Of a stretch of 64,000 bases of DNA, positions 1 to 64,000 are shown piece after piece; the first letter of the stretch is position 1; each line of letters starts with the position of its first letter. The notes under the pieces were generated by a model. It saw only the letters and a program-made list of their open reading frames with translations. It was not told the DNA's origin and did no database searches. The position numbers were made by a program, and so were the translations under genes. The stretch is from assembly GCA_017513245.1 (NCBI GenBank), contig JAFXGK010000022.1, positions 1-64,000 of the forward strand, read 5' to 3'. The DNA is from Clostridia bacterium. GTDB lineage: Bacteria > Bacillota > Clostridia > Oscillospirales > Acutalibacteraceae.

Positions 1-35
1 AACCGATAAATAAGAATTTGACGGAGGAGATTATT

Positions 36-425
36 ATGGACAATCGAGAAATCGTAATTCGTTTTTTTGATGAAGGTTATACCAATAAAAACTATGATTA
101 CATTATGCAGCATGTTTCGGAAGATTATTATGACCACAGTCCTGCAGGAGCACGAAGCAATAAAGCGGCAGTGGAAATTCTTAAAATCGTTGCCCAGCAG
201 TTTTCAGATTTAAAAATAACTGTCCTTGACGCTTTTTCACAAGGCAATATGGTAGCTACCCGTGTCCTTTACGAAGGCGTGCATACAGGCGAATGTATGG
301 GCATTGCCCCCACGGGTAAAAGAATATGTTTTGAAGCATTAGAAAACTTCAGATTAGAAGATGGAAAAATTGTCGAGTCTTGGGGCTATTGGCCTGATAA
401 GGAGATTGAACGAATACTTCGATAA
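36..425 (+). CDS. SnoaL-like ester cyclase family protein
   Basis: A 129-residue protein resembling the SnoaL-like polyketide cyclase/ester cyclase family (NTF2-like fold), small cytosolic proteins of mostly unknown substrate. The pattern seen is an N-terminal helix, a YYDHSP segment near residue 36, a mid-protein MVATRVLYEGVHTGE strand pair and a C-terminal DGKIVESWGYWP strand. The ATG at 36 is chosen over a TTG at 18 because GGAGGA lies 8 bases upstream. The gene is AT-richer than its neighbours and stands alone, followed directly by a structured repeat element (459-586) that also follows another lone gene at 33391. Its left context lies outside the window. The family call is fairly sure; the substrate is unknown. 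Confidence 0.75.
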   Translation: MDNREIVIRFFDEGYTNKNYDYIMQHVSEDYYDHSPAGARSNKAAVEILKIVAQQFSDLKITVLDAFSQGNMVATRVLYEGVHTGECMGIAPTGKRICFEALENFRLEDGKIVESWGYWPDKEIERILR

Positions 426-458
426 ATTCCAATTTATCGAATAGGTGATATTTGTTTA

Positions 459-586
459 GAAAAGGGTTTTAGGTTCTCCTAACAAGTGACATTTGGGGCG
501 CCTAAATGTCCTGCTTGTTACGGTATAAGACAAAATTAAAGGAAGCACGAAATTTCGTGCTTCCTTTTTTACTGTCCTTAAGAGTA
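459..586 (+). repeat. Structured non-coding element, copy 1
   Basis: This element shares flanks and architecture with 33823-33955. In order it holds a small hairpin TTAGG-TTCT-CCTAA (469-482), a long hairpin with outer stem TAACAAG/CTTGTTA (480-486 with 514-520) and inner stem GACATTT/AAATGTC (488-494 with 504-510), a conserved single-stranded stretch ACGGTATAAGACAAAA (520-535), a terminator-like hairpin (541-564) with T-run, and a conserved tail ACTGTCCTTAAGAGTA (571-586). The inner and terminator stems differ in sequence from copy 2 but keep pairing, whereas loops and flanks are conserved. It could be an RNA motif, a cassette-associated recombination site or a mobile-element end. Confidence 0.7.
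541..570 (+). terminator. Rho-independent terminator inside element copy 1
   Basis: A perfect 24-base palindrome (GGAAGCACGAAA with its complement, 541-564) is followed by six T. It would end the SnoaL-like transcript. It also faces the 3' end of the convergent FAD oxidoreductase gene and may act in both directions. Confidence 0.85.
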
Positions 587-611
587 TGCTTCATAACGGG
601 AGGTTTTATTT

Positions 612-33123: not shown

Positions 33124-33139
33124 AAAAGGCTGAGGATTA

Positions 33140-33172
33140 GGGGTTGTATCCGTAAGGATACAACCCCAGTTT
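33140..33172 (+). terminator. Terminator after the GH78-like gene
   Basis: Stem GGGGTTGTATCC/GGATACAACCCC with GTAA loop (33140-33167), followed by AGTTTTATT. Confidence 0.85.
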
Positions 33173-33347
33173 TATTCGCCTTCCGGCGAGTTGTATTGCT
33201 ATGCAGTTGTATTTGGACTAAGGTCCAAGTGATATTGCCTTCGGCAGTTTATTGGCGAATAAAATATCACTGAAACCGAAAGGTTTCAATATCACTTTTG
33301 ATTTATCAAAAATACCACTGTGAGACCCGTCTCACAATATCACTTGA
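33170..33347. repeat. Array of short hairpins with GTGATATT spacers
   Basis: The gap before the DMP19-like gene is packed with small hairpins: CGCC-TTC-GGCG, TGGAC-TAA-GTCCA-like, GCC-TTC-GGC, GAAACC-GAAA-GGTTTC and GTGAGAC-CC-GTCTCAC. They are separated by AAGTGATATT or its complement AATATCACTT (33229, 33264, 33287 and 33335 regions). An outer inverted repeat TTTATTCGCC/GGCGAATAAA (33171-33180 with 33254-33263) encloses the left half. This recalls REP/BIME-like or MITE-like palindromic DNA. It contains no convincing gene. Confidence 0.6.
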
Positions 33348-33390
33348 AAATTAAATTAAAAATTTATATAATAAGCGCAGAGGTGATTTT

Positions 33391-33795
33391 ATGAGTTTGT
33401 TTGATTTCTTTAAGAAAAAGAAGGTTGAATTAACAGAAGAACAGTTAAAATGGAATAAAATGTGGGAGCTGTGGACTGAGGAAAAAGTGGCTTCCCCGTA
33501 TGCAGAACTTATGACATATCAAAGTGAAATCAACAATGGTGGACATGACCAGTATTTCTCCAATGTTGAAAATACAGGTGACTTACAAAAAGAACTATCT
33601 ACTTTAGAAACAATTTTATCTGCAAAGTTAAAAGCAAACTTAAAAAAAGCACACAAGGCATATCTTGTTTTGGAAGAAAAAGAGGACGATGAAAAGGCGG
33701 AAGAAACATTAGAACAATGTGATGATGTGTTCTATGAAAACGAGGAAGAAATTAATCGTTTGCTTGAAGAATATGCTTGTAAAATAGAATTGTGA
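33391..33795 (+). CDS. DMP19/DUF4375-like acidic protein
   Basis: A 134-residue, strongly acidic protein. The stretch INNGGHDQYFSN (about 51-62) is the hallmark of the DMP19/DUF4375 family. One studied member, from Neisseria, mimics DNA and titrates a repressor; whether this one does is unknown. Residues 85-125 are rich in Glu and Asp. The ATG has AGAGGTGA upstream. The gene is clearly AT-richer than its neighbours and lies between a hairpin array and copy 2 of the structured element, which suggests acquisition. Confidence 0.75.
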   Translation: MSLFDFFKKKKVELTEEQLKWNKMWELWTEEKVASPYAELMTYQSEINNGGHDQYFSNVENTGDLQKELSTLETILSAKLKANLKKAHKAYLVLEEKEDDEKAEETLEQCDDVFYENEEEINRLLEEYACKIEL

Positions 33796-33822
33796 TTTAA
33801 CCCGCTGTTCACTTAGCAAGGT

Positions 33823-33955
33823 TGAAAGGGGTTTAGGTTTTCCTAACAAGTGAAAAATGTGCCGTACATTTTCCCTGCTTGTTACGGTATGAGACAAAAA
33901 ATTAAGAGCTGTGTAGAAAATTTCTACACAGCTCTTTTACTGTCCTTTAGAGTAC
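33823..33955 (+). repeat. Structured non-coding element, copy 2
   Basis: This second copy of the element at 459-586 has hairpin TTAGG-TTTT-CCTAA (33833-33846), outer stem TAACAAG/CTTGTTA (33844-33850 with 33878-33884), inner stem AAAATGT/ACATTTT (33854-33860 with 33866-33872), conserved ACGGTATGAGACAAAAA (33884-33900), a terminator hairpin (33904-33936) and tail ACTGTCCTTTAGAGTA (33939-33954). The inner stem uses the complementary order to copy 1. Its right end abuts the 3' end of a convergent gene at 33961. Confidence 0.7.
33904..33940 (+). terminator. Terminator inside element copy 2
   Basis: Stem AAGAGCTGTGTAGAAA/TTTCTACACAGCTCTT with a single A in the loop and a TT extension. It is perfect over 16 pairs and also faces the convergent membrane protein gene. 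Confidence 0.85.
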
Positions 33956-33960
33956 AACTC

Positions 33961-34767
33961 TTATTCCTCAGCCTTTATTCTTTTCTTATAGGGTATATTT
34001 GCAAAAACCAAAAGTATTACGGCAAGCACGACCATTGTAACCAGCAGCGAATAAATTATTCCGGTTGCGAGTGCGTACATCGACGGACTCGTGATACCAA
34101 GGCTTGCTATATTTCTGAATATGAGCATATACGCAGGGAAAATAATAAGCATAATTCCTGCGCTTGATACAGCTATACGGAAGAATATTTCCTTGCCCAC
34201 CTTTGCCGTAACGAAAAGCAGTCCCGCCGCGCCGAGGGCGGCTACCGAAAAGACTATCCACACAGCAGGGCTGAGCATAGACGATATCTTACCGCCGAAT
34301 TTTATAAACGCGGAGTTAACTAAGCGCTTATATTCGTCAGCGCAGTGTGTAACGAGGCGATCGATATTTTCTTCGGTGCTGTCCTCGCCCGCCTCAACCT
34401 TTATTTCCTTCTCTTCGGCATAGTCAAGAACGTACTGTTTCATTTGTTCTTTAAAGGAATCAAGATTGACGCTCTCACCGCCGAAGGCCGCGTTCACGGT
34501 TGCGTTTATGTCACGCGAGAGTTGCCCTCTATCCAATTTATCATTGAAAAAATCCTGCGGCAGTCCGCCGGGGATTGCATAGCCTTCAAGCTCTGCGAGC
34601 ACTTCTTCCGTCACCTTTTTATCGTAGCTTTTGCCCGTAAGAAGCGAAAAATAGGGTTTTGAAAACACTATTCCCACCGTGAGCGCAATTATCGCAAGGG
34701 CCAGCAAAACCGCAGACGCAAAGGCAATAATCGCGGCTAATGCTTTTTTAAAAACTTCACTTTTCAT
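33961..34767 (-). CDS. Polytopic membrane protein of the sortase cluster
   Basis: A 268-residue protein of no recognised family. An N-terminal membrane helix (about 10-35) is followed by an extracytoplasmic helical domain (about 38-165, containing a Glu/Lys-rich stretch) and three more membrane helices (about 168-190, 195-220, 232-258), then a Lys-rich tail. It lies 10 bases after the sortase gene and is probably co-transcribed. It may assist presentation of the sortase substrate. Function unknown. Confidence 0.65.
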   Translation of the reverse strand: MKSEVFKKALAAIIAFASAVLLALAIIALTVGIVFSKPYFSLLTGKSYDKKVTEEVLAELEGYAIPGGLPQDFFNDKLDRGQLSRDINATVNAAFGGESVNLDSFKEQMKQYVLDYAEEKEIKVEAGEDSTEENIDRLVTHCADEYKRLVNSAFIKFGGKISSMLSPAVWIVFSVAALGAAGLLFVTAKVGKEIFFRIAVSSAGIMLIIFPAYMLIFRNIASLGITSPSMYALATGIIYSLLVTMVVLAVILLVFANIPYKKRIKAEE

Positions 34768-40849: not shown

Positions 40850-41005
40850 CACTCTGCACCGAAAGTTATAGGTAAGTCTTCCGACTGGGGGCTCAAGCGA
40901 ATAACGCAGCCTTCCCGCAAAAGCAGTGGCACACAGCGTTTTCTTGCCCGTCACGGCGACGAGTTCGTCGGGGAATTACACCCCGTTCCTTATTAAGTCT
41001 TGTAA
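40850..41005 (-). ncRNA. Cobalamin riboswitch
   Basis: The minus-strand RNA carries cobalamin riboswitch landmarks in order: AAGGAACGGGGTGTAATTCC near the 5' end, GCCACTG, GCGGGAAGGC, and the B12-box-like CCAGTCGGAAGACTTACC near 40873-40890. A further paired region between 40750 and 40850 is a likely expression platform before the DUF4430 start. It should lower expression of the B12 capture and uptake genes when cobalamin is plentiful. Confidence 0.88.
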
Positions 41006-41073
41006 AAAGACGCCTATAGCATTTATTAATTTGTCAATGTGATTATAGCACCGAGCGCGATTATTGTCAAATT

Positions 41074-63292: not shown

Positions 63293-63368
63293 GGCGCCTC
63301 AAACAGGGCTCGAACCTGTGACACCGCGGTTAACAGCCGCGTGCTCTACCGACTGAGCTATTGAGGCA
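63293..63368 (-). tRNA. tRNA-Asn (GTT)
   Basis: A 76-base tRNA with an encoded CCA. The anticodon is GTT in CTGTTAACC, with normal D and T arms (GGTTCGAGC). Last gene of the rRNA operon, downstream of 5S. Confidence 0.96.
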
Positions 63369-63416
63369 AATATGCGTTTGCCGACTTAAGGGTATCCTTA
63401 AATCGGCAAACTTCTG

Positions 63417-63532
<116 letters not shown>

Positions 63533-63604
63533 CTTGTGGTTGAGCTTTCGCTCTTCCGTATATAAAACAGTTTGCACTGCTTTATGTCTGGCTTTTCCGC
63601 CGGA

Positions 63605-63680
63605 TGGTGACCCGTACGAGATTCGAACTCGTGTTGCCGGCGTGAGAGGCCGGAGTCTTAGGCCGCTTGACCAACGGGCC
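63605..63680 (-). tRNA. tRNA-Glu (CTC)
   Basis: A 76-base tRNA with encoded CCA and anticodon CTC in the loop CTCTCAC, reading GAG codons. It lies between 23S and 5S. Confidence 0.93.
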
Positions 63681-63740
63681 ATATATCTTAACGCACTTTC
63701 GTACGGTTAAGGCGTTTTTGTGCACCATAGAGATGCACAT

Positions 63741-63816
63741 TGGTGCACCATCAGGGACTCGAACCCGGGACACCCTGATTAAGAGTCAGGTGCTCTACCA
63801 ACTGAGCTAATGGTGC
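63741..63816 (-). tRNA. tRNA-Lys (CTT)
   Basis: A 76-base tRNA with encoded CCA and anticodon CTT in the loop CTCTTAA, reading AAG. It lies just downstream of 23S and before tRNA-Glu and 5S. Confidence 0.94.
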
Positions 63817-63870
63817 GAGTAGATATCACACCCTGAAAACTAAACAAAGATGCTGCAAAGGATCATTTAT

Positions 63871-64000
63871 AGGTCAAGCCCTCGGTCTATTAGTACTGCC
63901 TAGCTGAACGTGTCACCACGCTTACACATGCAGCCTATCAACCCGGTAGTCTTCCGGGGACCTTACTAGCTTATGCTATGGGATATCTTATCTTGAGGTT
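63871..64000 (-). rRNA. rrl: 23S ribosomal RNA, 3' end (partial)
   Basis: On the minus strand the sequence GTTGATAGGCTGCATGTGTA and GTACTAATAGACCGAGGGCT are the conserved last part of 23S rRNA. The 3' end is near 63871; the gene continues past the window edge. Confidence 0.95.

Follow-up and report, generated by a model that had tools for sequence, protein, structure and literature searches.

Structured tails behind lone genes in gut Clostridia as probable transfer origins of miniature mobilizable satellites

Comparison with described mobile elements

IMEs, iOriT elements, CIMEs and multi-targeting large serine recombinases (LSRs) with DUF4368 are already known. According to the accessible text of the sources, IMEs, with Tn4451 among them, spread by pirating conjugation (PMC5704250), iOriT elements are IMEs with an origin of transfer (oriT) but no relaxase (PMC11389934), and CIMEs have retained their att sites while the genes for integration and transfer were lost (PMC5704250). 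In the same way, multi-targeting LSRs are described as carrying DUF4368 and as acting on attB sites that contain a core dinucleotide and are rich in A/T at their ends (PMC10083194, PMC13137831). Here we analyzed a stretch of 64,000 nucleotides from a Clostridia bacterium (the window), in which a preliminary description had pointed out two copies of a structured tail (459..586 and 33823-33955), each behind a lone gene. Both copies are real and have the features described. In our reading they are very probably the oriT part of cassette-like, miniature mobilizable satellites, which would borrow both integrase and relaxase.

The units resemble each of the known systems in part. As far as the accessible text of PMC11389934 defines iOriT elements, the units belong to them: they are integrated in the chromosome, their predicted oriT matches that of a helper, and they are without relaxase or mating-pair genes. 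However, they are also without an integrase, and the cargo is usually just one gene, drawn from many unrelated ones. In complete elements, copy 2 for example, nothing but the cargo gene is encoded, whereas an IME in the strict sense has an integrase of its own. They share with CIMEs, as these are outlined in the accessible part of PMC5704250, the retained ends, with cores that match in 32/34 arm-selected elements, and the absence of an integrase; they differ in that oriT is retained and that near-identical units occur at unrelated sites, not immobile in tandem beside an ICE or IME. In fact, copy 2 and copy 3 stand alone between host genes. Tn4451/Tn5397-like IMEs are similar to the candidate helper L206 in having a DUF4368 LSR, a TnpW-like protein and a relaxase with oriT, but not to the units of the window, which have no LSR or relaxase and occupy terminator loops. 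The core dinucleotide of TnpX and TndX is GA, whereas window-type units have TA, AA/TT or AT.

Integron gene cassettes also combine one gene, which varies from cassette to cassette, with a standard dispersal site. In the units, however, this site is an oriT, serine-recombinase half-sites form the ends, and movement should take place between cells. MITEs and mobile insertion cassettes are likewise non-autonomous, with inverted ends, a passenger gene and a recombinase acting in trans; the units differ from them in the enzyme (LSR, not DDE), in the terminator-loop target and in the oriT that they carry. Multi-targeting LSRs such as Cp36 share the DUF4368 clade, many attB sites, a variable core dinucleotide and A/T-enriched ends (PMC10083194, PMC13137831). 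The word 'terminator' is used 0 times in the main text of these two papers, and their accessible parts do not mention satellites using LSR ends. In the open-access literature searched, we found no description of single-gene satellites with an oriT and LSR ends in terminators, which are apparently new. The occurrence of unrelated single genes of gut Clostridia in such units suggests an unrecognized route for spreading genes between cells. If this is right, a set of seemingly isolated accessory genes on the chromosomes of gut Clostridia would be conjugation-ready satellites, and the spread of lone genes without visible mobility genes would be explained. The signature of LE/RE ends, 2-bp core, split terminator and oriT would make the satellites countable, helper-satellite pairs could be tested, and the multi-targeting LSR clade, which is of interest for genome engineering, would have members using bidirectional terminators as natural landing sites.

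The tail as a predicted origin of transfer

In the own genome, CTTGTTACGGTATRAGAC occurs three times, in the two copies of the window and at G000:C47:78832 on the minus strand, against 0 occurrences of a reversed control pattern. The earlier observation that the stems differ in sequence between the copies and still pair was confirmed: the inner stem is paired at 9/9 positions in copy 1 (GACATTTGG/CTAAATGTC) and at 8/9 in copy 2 (GAAAAATGT/ACATTTTCC). The shared blocks that had been listed are also real, with one correction, in that ACTGTCCTTWAGAGTA lies outside the stem-loop unit, belonging instead to a larger element as its right end (Table 1). The left end of copy 2 (33138-33139) had been missed. 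Copy 1 has no left end: the window starts at contig base 1, inside the element. Each copy follows a single gene and has a convergent neighbor, as described, and Pfam assigned the two genes to SnoaL (copy 1) and DMP19 (copy 2).

Table 1. Features of the two copies in the window
Feature	Position	Strand	Remarks
Copy 1 element	1..594	+	SnoaL cargo, oriT and right end; left part lost at contig start
Copy 1 cargo, SnoaL-like	36..425	+	Pfam SnoaL, 7e-26
Copy 1 oriT (predicted)	469..531	+	hairpin TTAGG/CCTAA 469-482; inverted repeat 488-496/502-510
Copy 1 oriT nick region (putative)	CTG 511-513; conserved CTTGTTACGGTATAAGAC 514-531	+	
Copy 1 terminator hairpin, between oriT and right end	541..570	+	by eye
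Copy 1 right end	572..594	+	RE 572-592; core AT 593-594 (core by eye); host terminator arm next
Copy 2 host terminator, left arm GGCTGAGGA	33128..33136	+	sister genome G070 has this terminator intact
Copy 2 complete element, cores included	33138..33963	+	826 bp, LE-RE; missing at the same intergenic place in G070
Copy 2 left end	33138..33167	+	core TA 33138-33139; terminator-like hairpin 33140-33167
Copy 2 LE hairpin array, ATATCACT-spaced	33168..33345	+	repeat matches in G000 and relatives
Promoter-like site upstream of DMP19-like gene	33344-33372		11/12 matches; 2 sites found, 2.9 expected
Copy 2 cargo, DMP19-like	33391..33795	+	Pfam DMP19, 5.8e-12
Copy 2 oriT (predicted)	33833..33895	+	hairpin 33833-33846; inverted repeat 33852-33860/33866-33874
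Copy 2 oriT nick region (putative)	CTG 33875-33877; CTTGTTACGGTATGAGAC 33878-33895	+	
Copy 2 terminator hairpin, oriT to right end	33904..33936	.	scored on - strand, 15 pairs
Copy 2 right end	33940..33963	+	RE 33940-33960; core TA 33962-33963
Copy 2 host terminator, right arm TCCTCAGCC	33965..33973	+	

The motif was also present in other genomes, with at most one mismatch in 24/200 genomes of the same family (1 match for the reversed control) and exactly in 84 stretches of a genome contig collection. Most of these stretches were from MAGs of Clostridia/Oscillospiraceae, and many motif-bearing MAGs were named after ruminant gut samples. Viral contigs gave one exact match, L118, which by eye had no inverted repeat and was treated as chance. 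A 51-base oriT query gave no match in the plasmid or phage record collections. After removal of duplicates 108 distinct contexts remained, four of which (L118, L043, L064, L089) were deemed chance and excluded before the stem analyses. Among named records, real copies are confined to MAGs or uncultured assemblies. Contigs often begin or end inside units (window position 1, many MAG contig ends), as expected of community-wide repeats, and because contigs break there, assemblies will undercount the units.

We read the tail as an oriT because it recurs beside relaxase genes. The predicted oriT consists of an inverted repeat followed by CTG|CTTGTTACGGTATRAGAC, and the same layout is found elsewhere beside mobC and relaxase genes. 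The repeat lies directly 5' of a CCTG|C-like putative nick site with relaxase and NikA genes adjoining, which is the layout of a MOBP-type oriT. MOBP relaxases nick at the consensus CCTG|C, and we propose by analogy that copy 1 would be nicked between 513 and 514. At the other loci, the oriT core adjoins a NikA-like gene and a relaxase that both run away from it, with the tail upstream of and antisense to mobC. In tblastn searches with the L206 proteins, a relaxase was found near 11/35 contexts without element ends (the 35 include the four chance matches); it lay at most 0.5 kb from the motif in ten of them and 1.4 kb away, with NikA between, in the eleventh. One further context without ends, L111, had NikA only. 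For the contexts with ends (73), the same searches covered up to 3.5 kb on each side and found 0 relaxases. A different case is L068, where a single 743-aa frame upstream of the oriT is a relaxase at its beginning and a serine recombinase thereafter, apparently as a natural fusion or at the joint of a deletion.

Furthermore, the stem covaries. In 76 distinct copies with 24 distinct right arms, on average 8.2/9 positions of the 9-bp repeat are paired, compared with 6.2 for arms combined across sequences that differ in the right arm; contexts without CTG before CTTGTT, duplicates and contexts near a locus end had been left out of this set. As single-stranded DNA, all three sequences examined folded more stably than their shuffles, with z of -3.5 for copy 1, -2.3 for copy 2 and -5.6 for the L206 oriT. 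Stems were poor in L015, L025, L088 and L095, which may be chance or truncated. A structured RNA, which the preliminary description had also considered, could be regulatory or terminator-associated and be carried by unrelated genes. A stable fold with a covarying stem would suit such an RNA, but the inverted repeat of an oriT would covary equally, neither copy matched an Rfam family at gathering score, and at relaxase loci the tail is also found, there on the strand opposite to mobC and upstream of it; we find this explanation most improbable. Many copies behind different genes have a palindrome like TTCGATAAATTCCAATTTATCGAA and about 20 nt of common sequence before the oriT (421-460 in the window), and a similar palindrome lies between two genes of L121 (about 960-985), a unit without an oriT match. 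Such a palindrome could mark the cargo junction.

Ends, cores and host terminators

Each copy is part of a small element composed of an end, a passenger gene, the oriT and an end. A conserved end, reading outward, was found near the tail in 73/108 contexts. It was a right end (RE, consensus CTGTCCTTWAGAGTACRACYC) in 55 and a left end (LE), which is a GTTGTAYCCGTAAGGATACAAC hairpin followed by a hairpin array, in 18. Two-ended elements have the layouts LE-RE, RE-LE (gene and tail reversed) and RE-RE, with gene and tail in either orientation between the ends. Arm-matched satellites range from 304 bp (L162, the ends and an oriT-like core) to 3.4 kb (L155). The own genome has five RE matches at up to 3 mismatches, and three of these belong to three elements with an exact oriT core. 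Four terminator-like sites were found in the copy 2 region against 0.7 expected, and those at 33140-33167 and 33904-33936 are among them. The LE hairpin array (33168-33345) recurs at many further places in these genomes, many of them in G259, and the outer hairpins differ in two solo array copies (L243, L244); it may belong to a distinct repeat family, recruited by the elements. About 600 bp of the LE half are common to L018, L028, L052, L086 and L090. In one subfamily a second gene near the LE (L054:3577-3975) encodes a 23S rRNA-intervening-sequence (four-helix bundle) protein, PF05635.

These ends bear on the likeness to integron attC sites that the preliminary description had seen in the tail. 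Integron-like cassettes with the tail as an attC-type site would explain one gene per tail and a hairpin with conserved flanks. However, an attC site is recombined by IntI at R' and R'' boxes inside the tail, whereas the recombination points here lie at the LE and RE cores, outside the tail; gene and tail occur in both orientations between the ends, and the tail recurs beside relaxase genes. The ends are of the serine-recombinase type and lie in a host terminator, and the tail, as a predicted oriT, can hardly be an attC site.

The satellites sit in the loop of bidirectional host terminators. Beyond the two ends, a single inverted repeat bordered by A and T runs contributes one arm on each side. 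In 24 elements chosen regardless of their flanks, the stem arms match at 7/8 positions or more in 22 (the other two have no matching arms), compared with 32/552 mismatched pairs. This stem-zone test was used instead of a 10-nt arm test including the A-run, which was too lax, 27/552 mismatched pairs reaching 10/10. An A-run was found at 81/87 distinct RE flanks but at only about 13% of random places. Empty sites were found for 3/3 elements tested, in one sister genome each: copy 2 in G070, L157 in G075 and L158 in G186. In each of them the flanks are adjacent in an intact hairpin terminator, folding with z between -4.3 and -5.3, and the center of the loop is TA in G070 and G186 but not in G075. 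Other genus-mates were uninformative, as G183 gave no match and G259 and G318 one flank each.

When the ends were compared position by position, one dinucleotide offset stood out. This 2-bp core, read on the element strand, is equal at both ends in 32/34 elements, against a mean of 20.4 and a maximum of 28 in 10,000 shuffles; the sample was selected for matching arms (9/10), L120, L125 and a second L053 pairing having been removed as duplicates, and the lax arm test admits a few poor-stem elements such as L106. The cores disagree in L020 and L159. The core is TA in 26/34 elements. Read inward from the RE, it is TT in L018, L086 and L108 and AT in L052, L090 and L107, and the sites differ; the cargo of L107 lies beyond the stretch examined.

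IS630/mariner elements duplicate a 2-bp TA target. MITE-like elements or mobile insertion cassettes moved by a DDE transposase of this kind, with the oriT present by accident, would have short inverted ends, and an identity of 2 bp with 26/34 cores being TA is formally equal to a target duplication. However, non-TA cores kept by lineage at different sites are not expected of duplication and fit the core of a serine recombinase better. The RE is also the terminus of LSR elements (see below). The oriT within two-ended elements weighs little here, since most loci were fetched by the oriT motif. On this evidence we regard a DDE origin as very unlikely.

Helper elements, passenger genes and movement

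Sequence comparison identifies the ends as the terminus of elements predicted to encode a DUF4368, TnpX/TndX-like LSR. The starting point was a search for RE sites in 20 oriT-bearing genomes, which led to G042:C98, where the LSR coding frame ends about 55 bp inside a perfect RE. In the family, 22/398 genomes have an LSR at E <= 1e-160. In 6/6 LSRs with at least 76% identity, a hairpin comes next, then the RE of the cargo elements (0-2 mismatches) and then a T-rich stretch. More distant LSRs mostly have other sequences with a TCCTTA-like motif at the corresponding place (by eye). The six closest helper LSR elements have TT as core in five cases and TC in one (by eye), whereas cargo elements mostly have TA.

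The LSR proteins of L206 and L163 have the Resolvase, Recombinase, zinc ribbon and DUF4368 domains that characterize a DUF4368 LSR. L206 is the only assembled element uniting the RE with a matching oriT, and its order is an actin-like protein, oriT (1 mismatch), NikA (PF21983), relaxase (PF03432), ParB, a TnpW-like protein (PF14202), LSR and RE; a terminator arm was searched for at its left end and not found. Another LSR element, the 19-kb L205, ends in an RE on either side (1 and 3 mismatches) and lies between the same arms. Its genes include a DMP19-like one, of the Pfam family of the copy 2 cargo, and a second frame is similar by eye. L205 had no oriT match at up to 5 mismatches, and its relaxase is of a different type, MobA/MobL. 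In G073:C90, an oriT match (L013) and an LSR of 52% identity (L169) are about 4.5 kb apart, without a cargo-type RE.

The preliminary description had raised the question whether each copy follows a different gene, and nearly every time it does. The 57 nearest passenger ORFs fall into 50 BLASTP clusters, an upper bound, since ORF choice was mechanical and a few short ones may not be genes. The cargo ORF was taken as the longest ORF of at least 60 aa ending at most 450 nt upstream, and was collected for 57/73 contexts. A Pfam scan of 40 cargos gave 22 with a match above the cut-off; families include SnoaL, DMP19, aldo/keto reductase, ion channel, BspA-type LRR, GNAT, PAP2, ABC2 permease, methyltransferase, DUF1275, GH30, radical SAM, VanW-like, HAD, alpha/beta hydrolase, SLOG, pyridoxamine phosphate oxidase-like and alpha-L-fucosidase. 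For example, copy 3 (L003) has an aldo/keto reductase in reverse orientation. L155 and L156 are 3.4-kb RE-RE units with type I restriction-modification methylase and specificity genes, and L154, outside the arm-matched set, holds an AraC regulator, an ADP-ribosylglycohydrolase and a GNAT gene in 4.8 kb between two REs. A unit of the own genome with a diverged oriT (L122:1672-2970, contig C9) has a gene with DUF4379 repeats and a weak MTES_1575 endonuclease match. No recombinase was found among the 40 scanned cargos except the C-terminus of a tyrosine integrase in L076, cut by the contig end. This integrase was rejected as the mover, since it was met only once, as a truncated passenger, whereas the RE is repeatedly adjoined by LSRs.

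The same units were found at different sites and in different species. L018/L086 (92.8% identity) and L052/L090 (90.2%) are the same units in unrelated terminators of different genomes. Over 1,315 bp, the VanW units of L053 (G186) and L158 (G075) share 95.7% identity, while the flanking host DNA of the two genomes has 72-75% identity. Diverse cargo, the repeated layout, the same cargo at different sites and identity across species point to recent movement. The idea of a cassette-like mobile unit of gene and structured tail, put forward in the preliminary description, is upheld: the tail follows different genes, occurs in other genomes, has a covarying stem and has empty sites for 3/3 elements, and none of the outcomes named there as contrary (always the same gene, absence elsewhere, no covariation) was seen.

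Alternatively, the units could be decayed IMEs (CIMEs), that is, LSR elements stripped of integrase and transfer genes and now immobile. Their ends and oriT are indeed those of LSR elements, some oriT copies are degenerate (L128, by eye), and the own genome (91.5% complete) is without close helper genes, having no PF03432 relaxase and a best LSR match of only 34% identity. However, decay would have to account for 50 clusters among 57 cargo ORFs, for a layout repeated down to the ends and oriT-like core of the 304-bp L162, for the L018/L086 and L052/L090 pairs, and for a unit more alike across species than the host DNA around it. We consider decay improbable, though it is the rival with the most in its favor.

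As mobilizable satellites, the units would depend on enzymes acting in trans for excision and transfer. Each is bounded by a pair of recombinase half-sites, either LE with RE or two REs, and holds the predicted oriT and, as a rule, one passenger gene followed by a terminator belonging to it; the complete elements read encode neither a recombinase nor a relaxase. A helper related to L206 or L205 would supply the DUF4368 LSR that excises the unit as a circle. The relaxase and NikA of an L206-type helper would nick the matching oriT, and the nicked circle could leave via the channel of some conjugative element. The LSR would then insert the circle by exchange at the 2-bp core in the loop of a bidirectional intrinsic terminator. 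Insertion would split this terminator, but both ends of copy 2 bring terminator-like hairpins, which may replace it, so the cost should be small. Tentatively, we would go one step further and see here a cassette economy run by conjugation, in which a standard carrier of half-sites and oriT captures, reassorts and delivers single genes across species into terminator loops, with both enzymes provided in trans by IMEs. Since the usual TA core is a palindrome and one end can stand in for the other (LE-RE, RE-LE and RE-RE forms, with cargo in either orientation), carriers could exchange genes; insertion in the loop would be nearly free of cost, and the entry of a gene with oriT between the ends would be a new mechanism of capture.

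Two further features were recognized in the window, a cobalamin riboswitch at 40854-41032 and an rRNA/tRNA cluster at its end (63295-64000).
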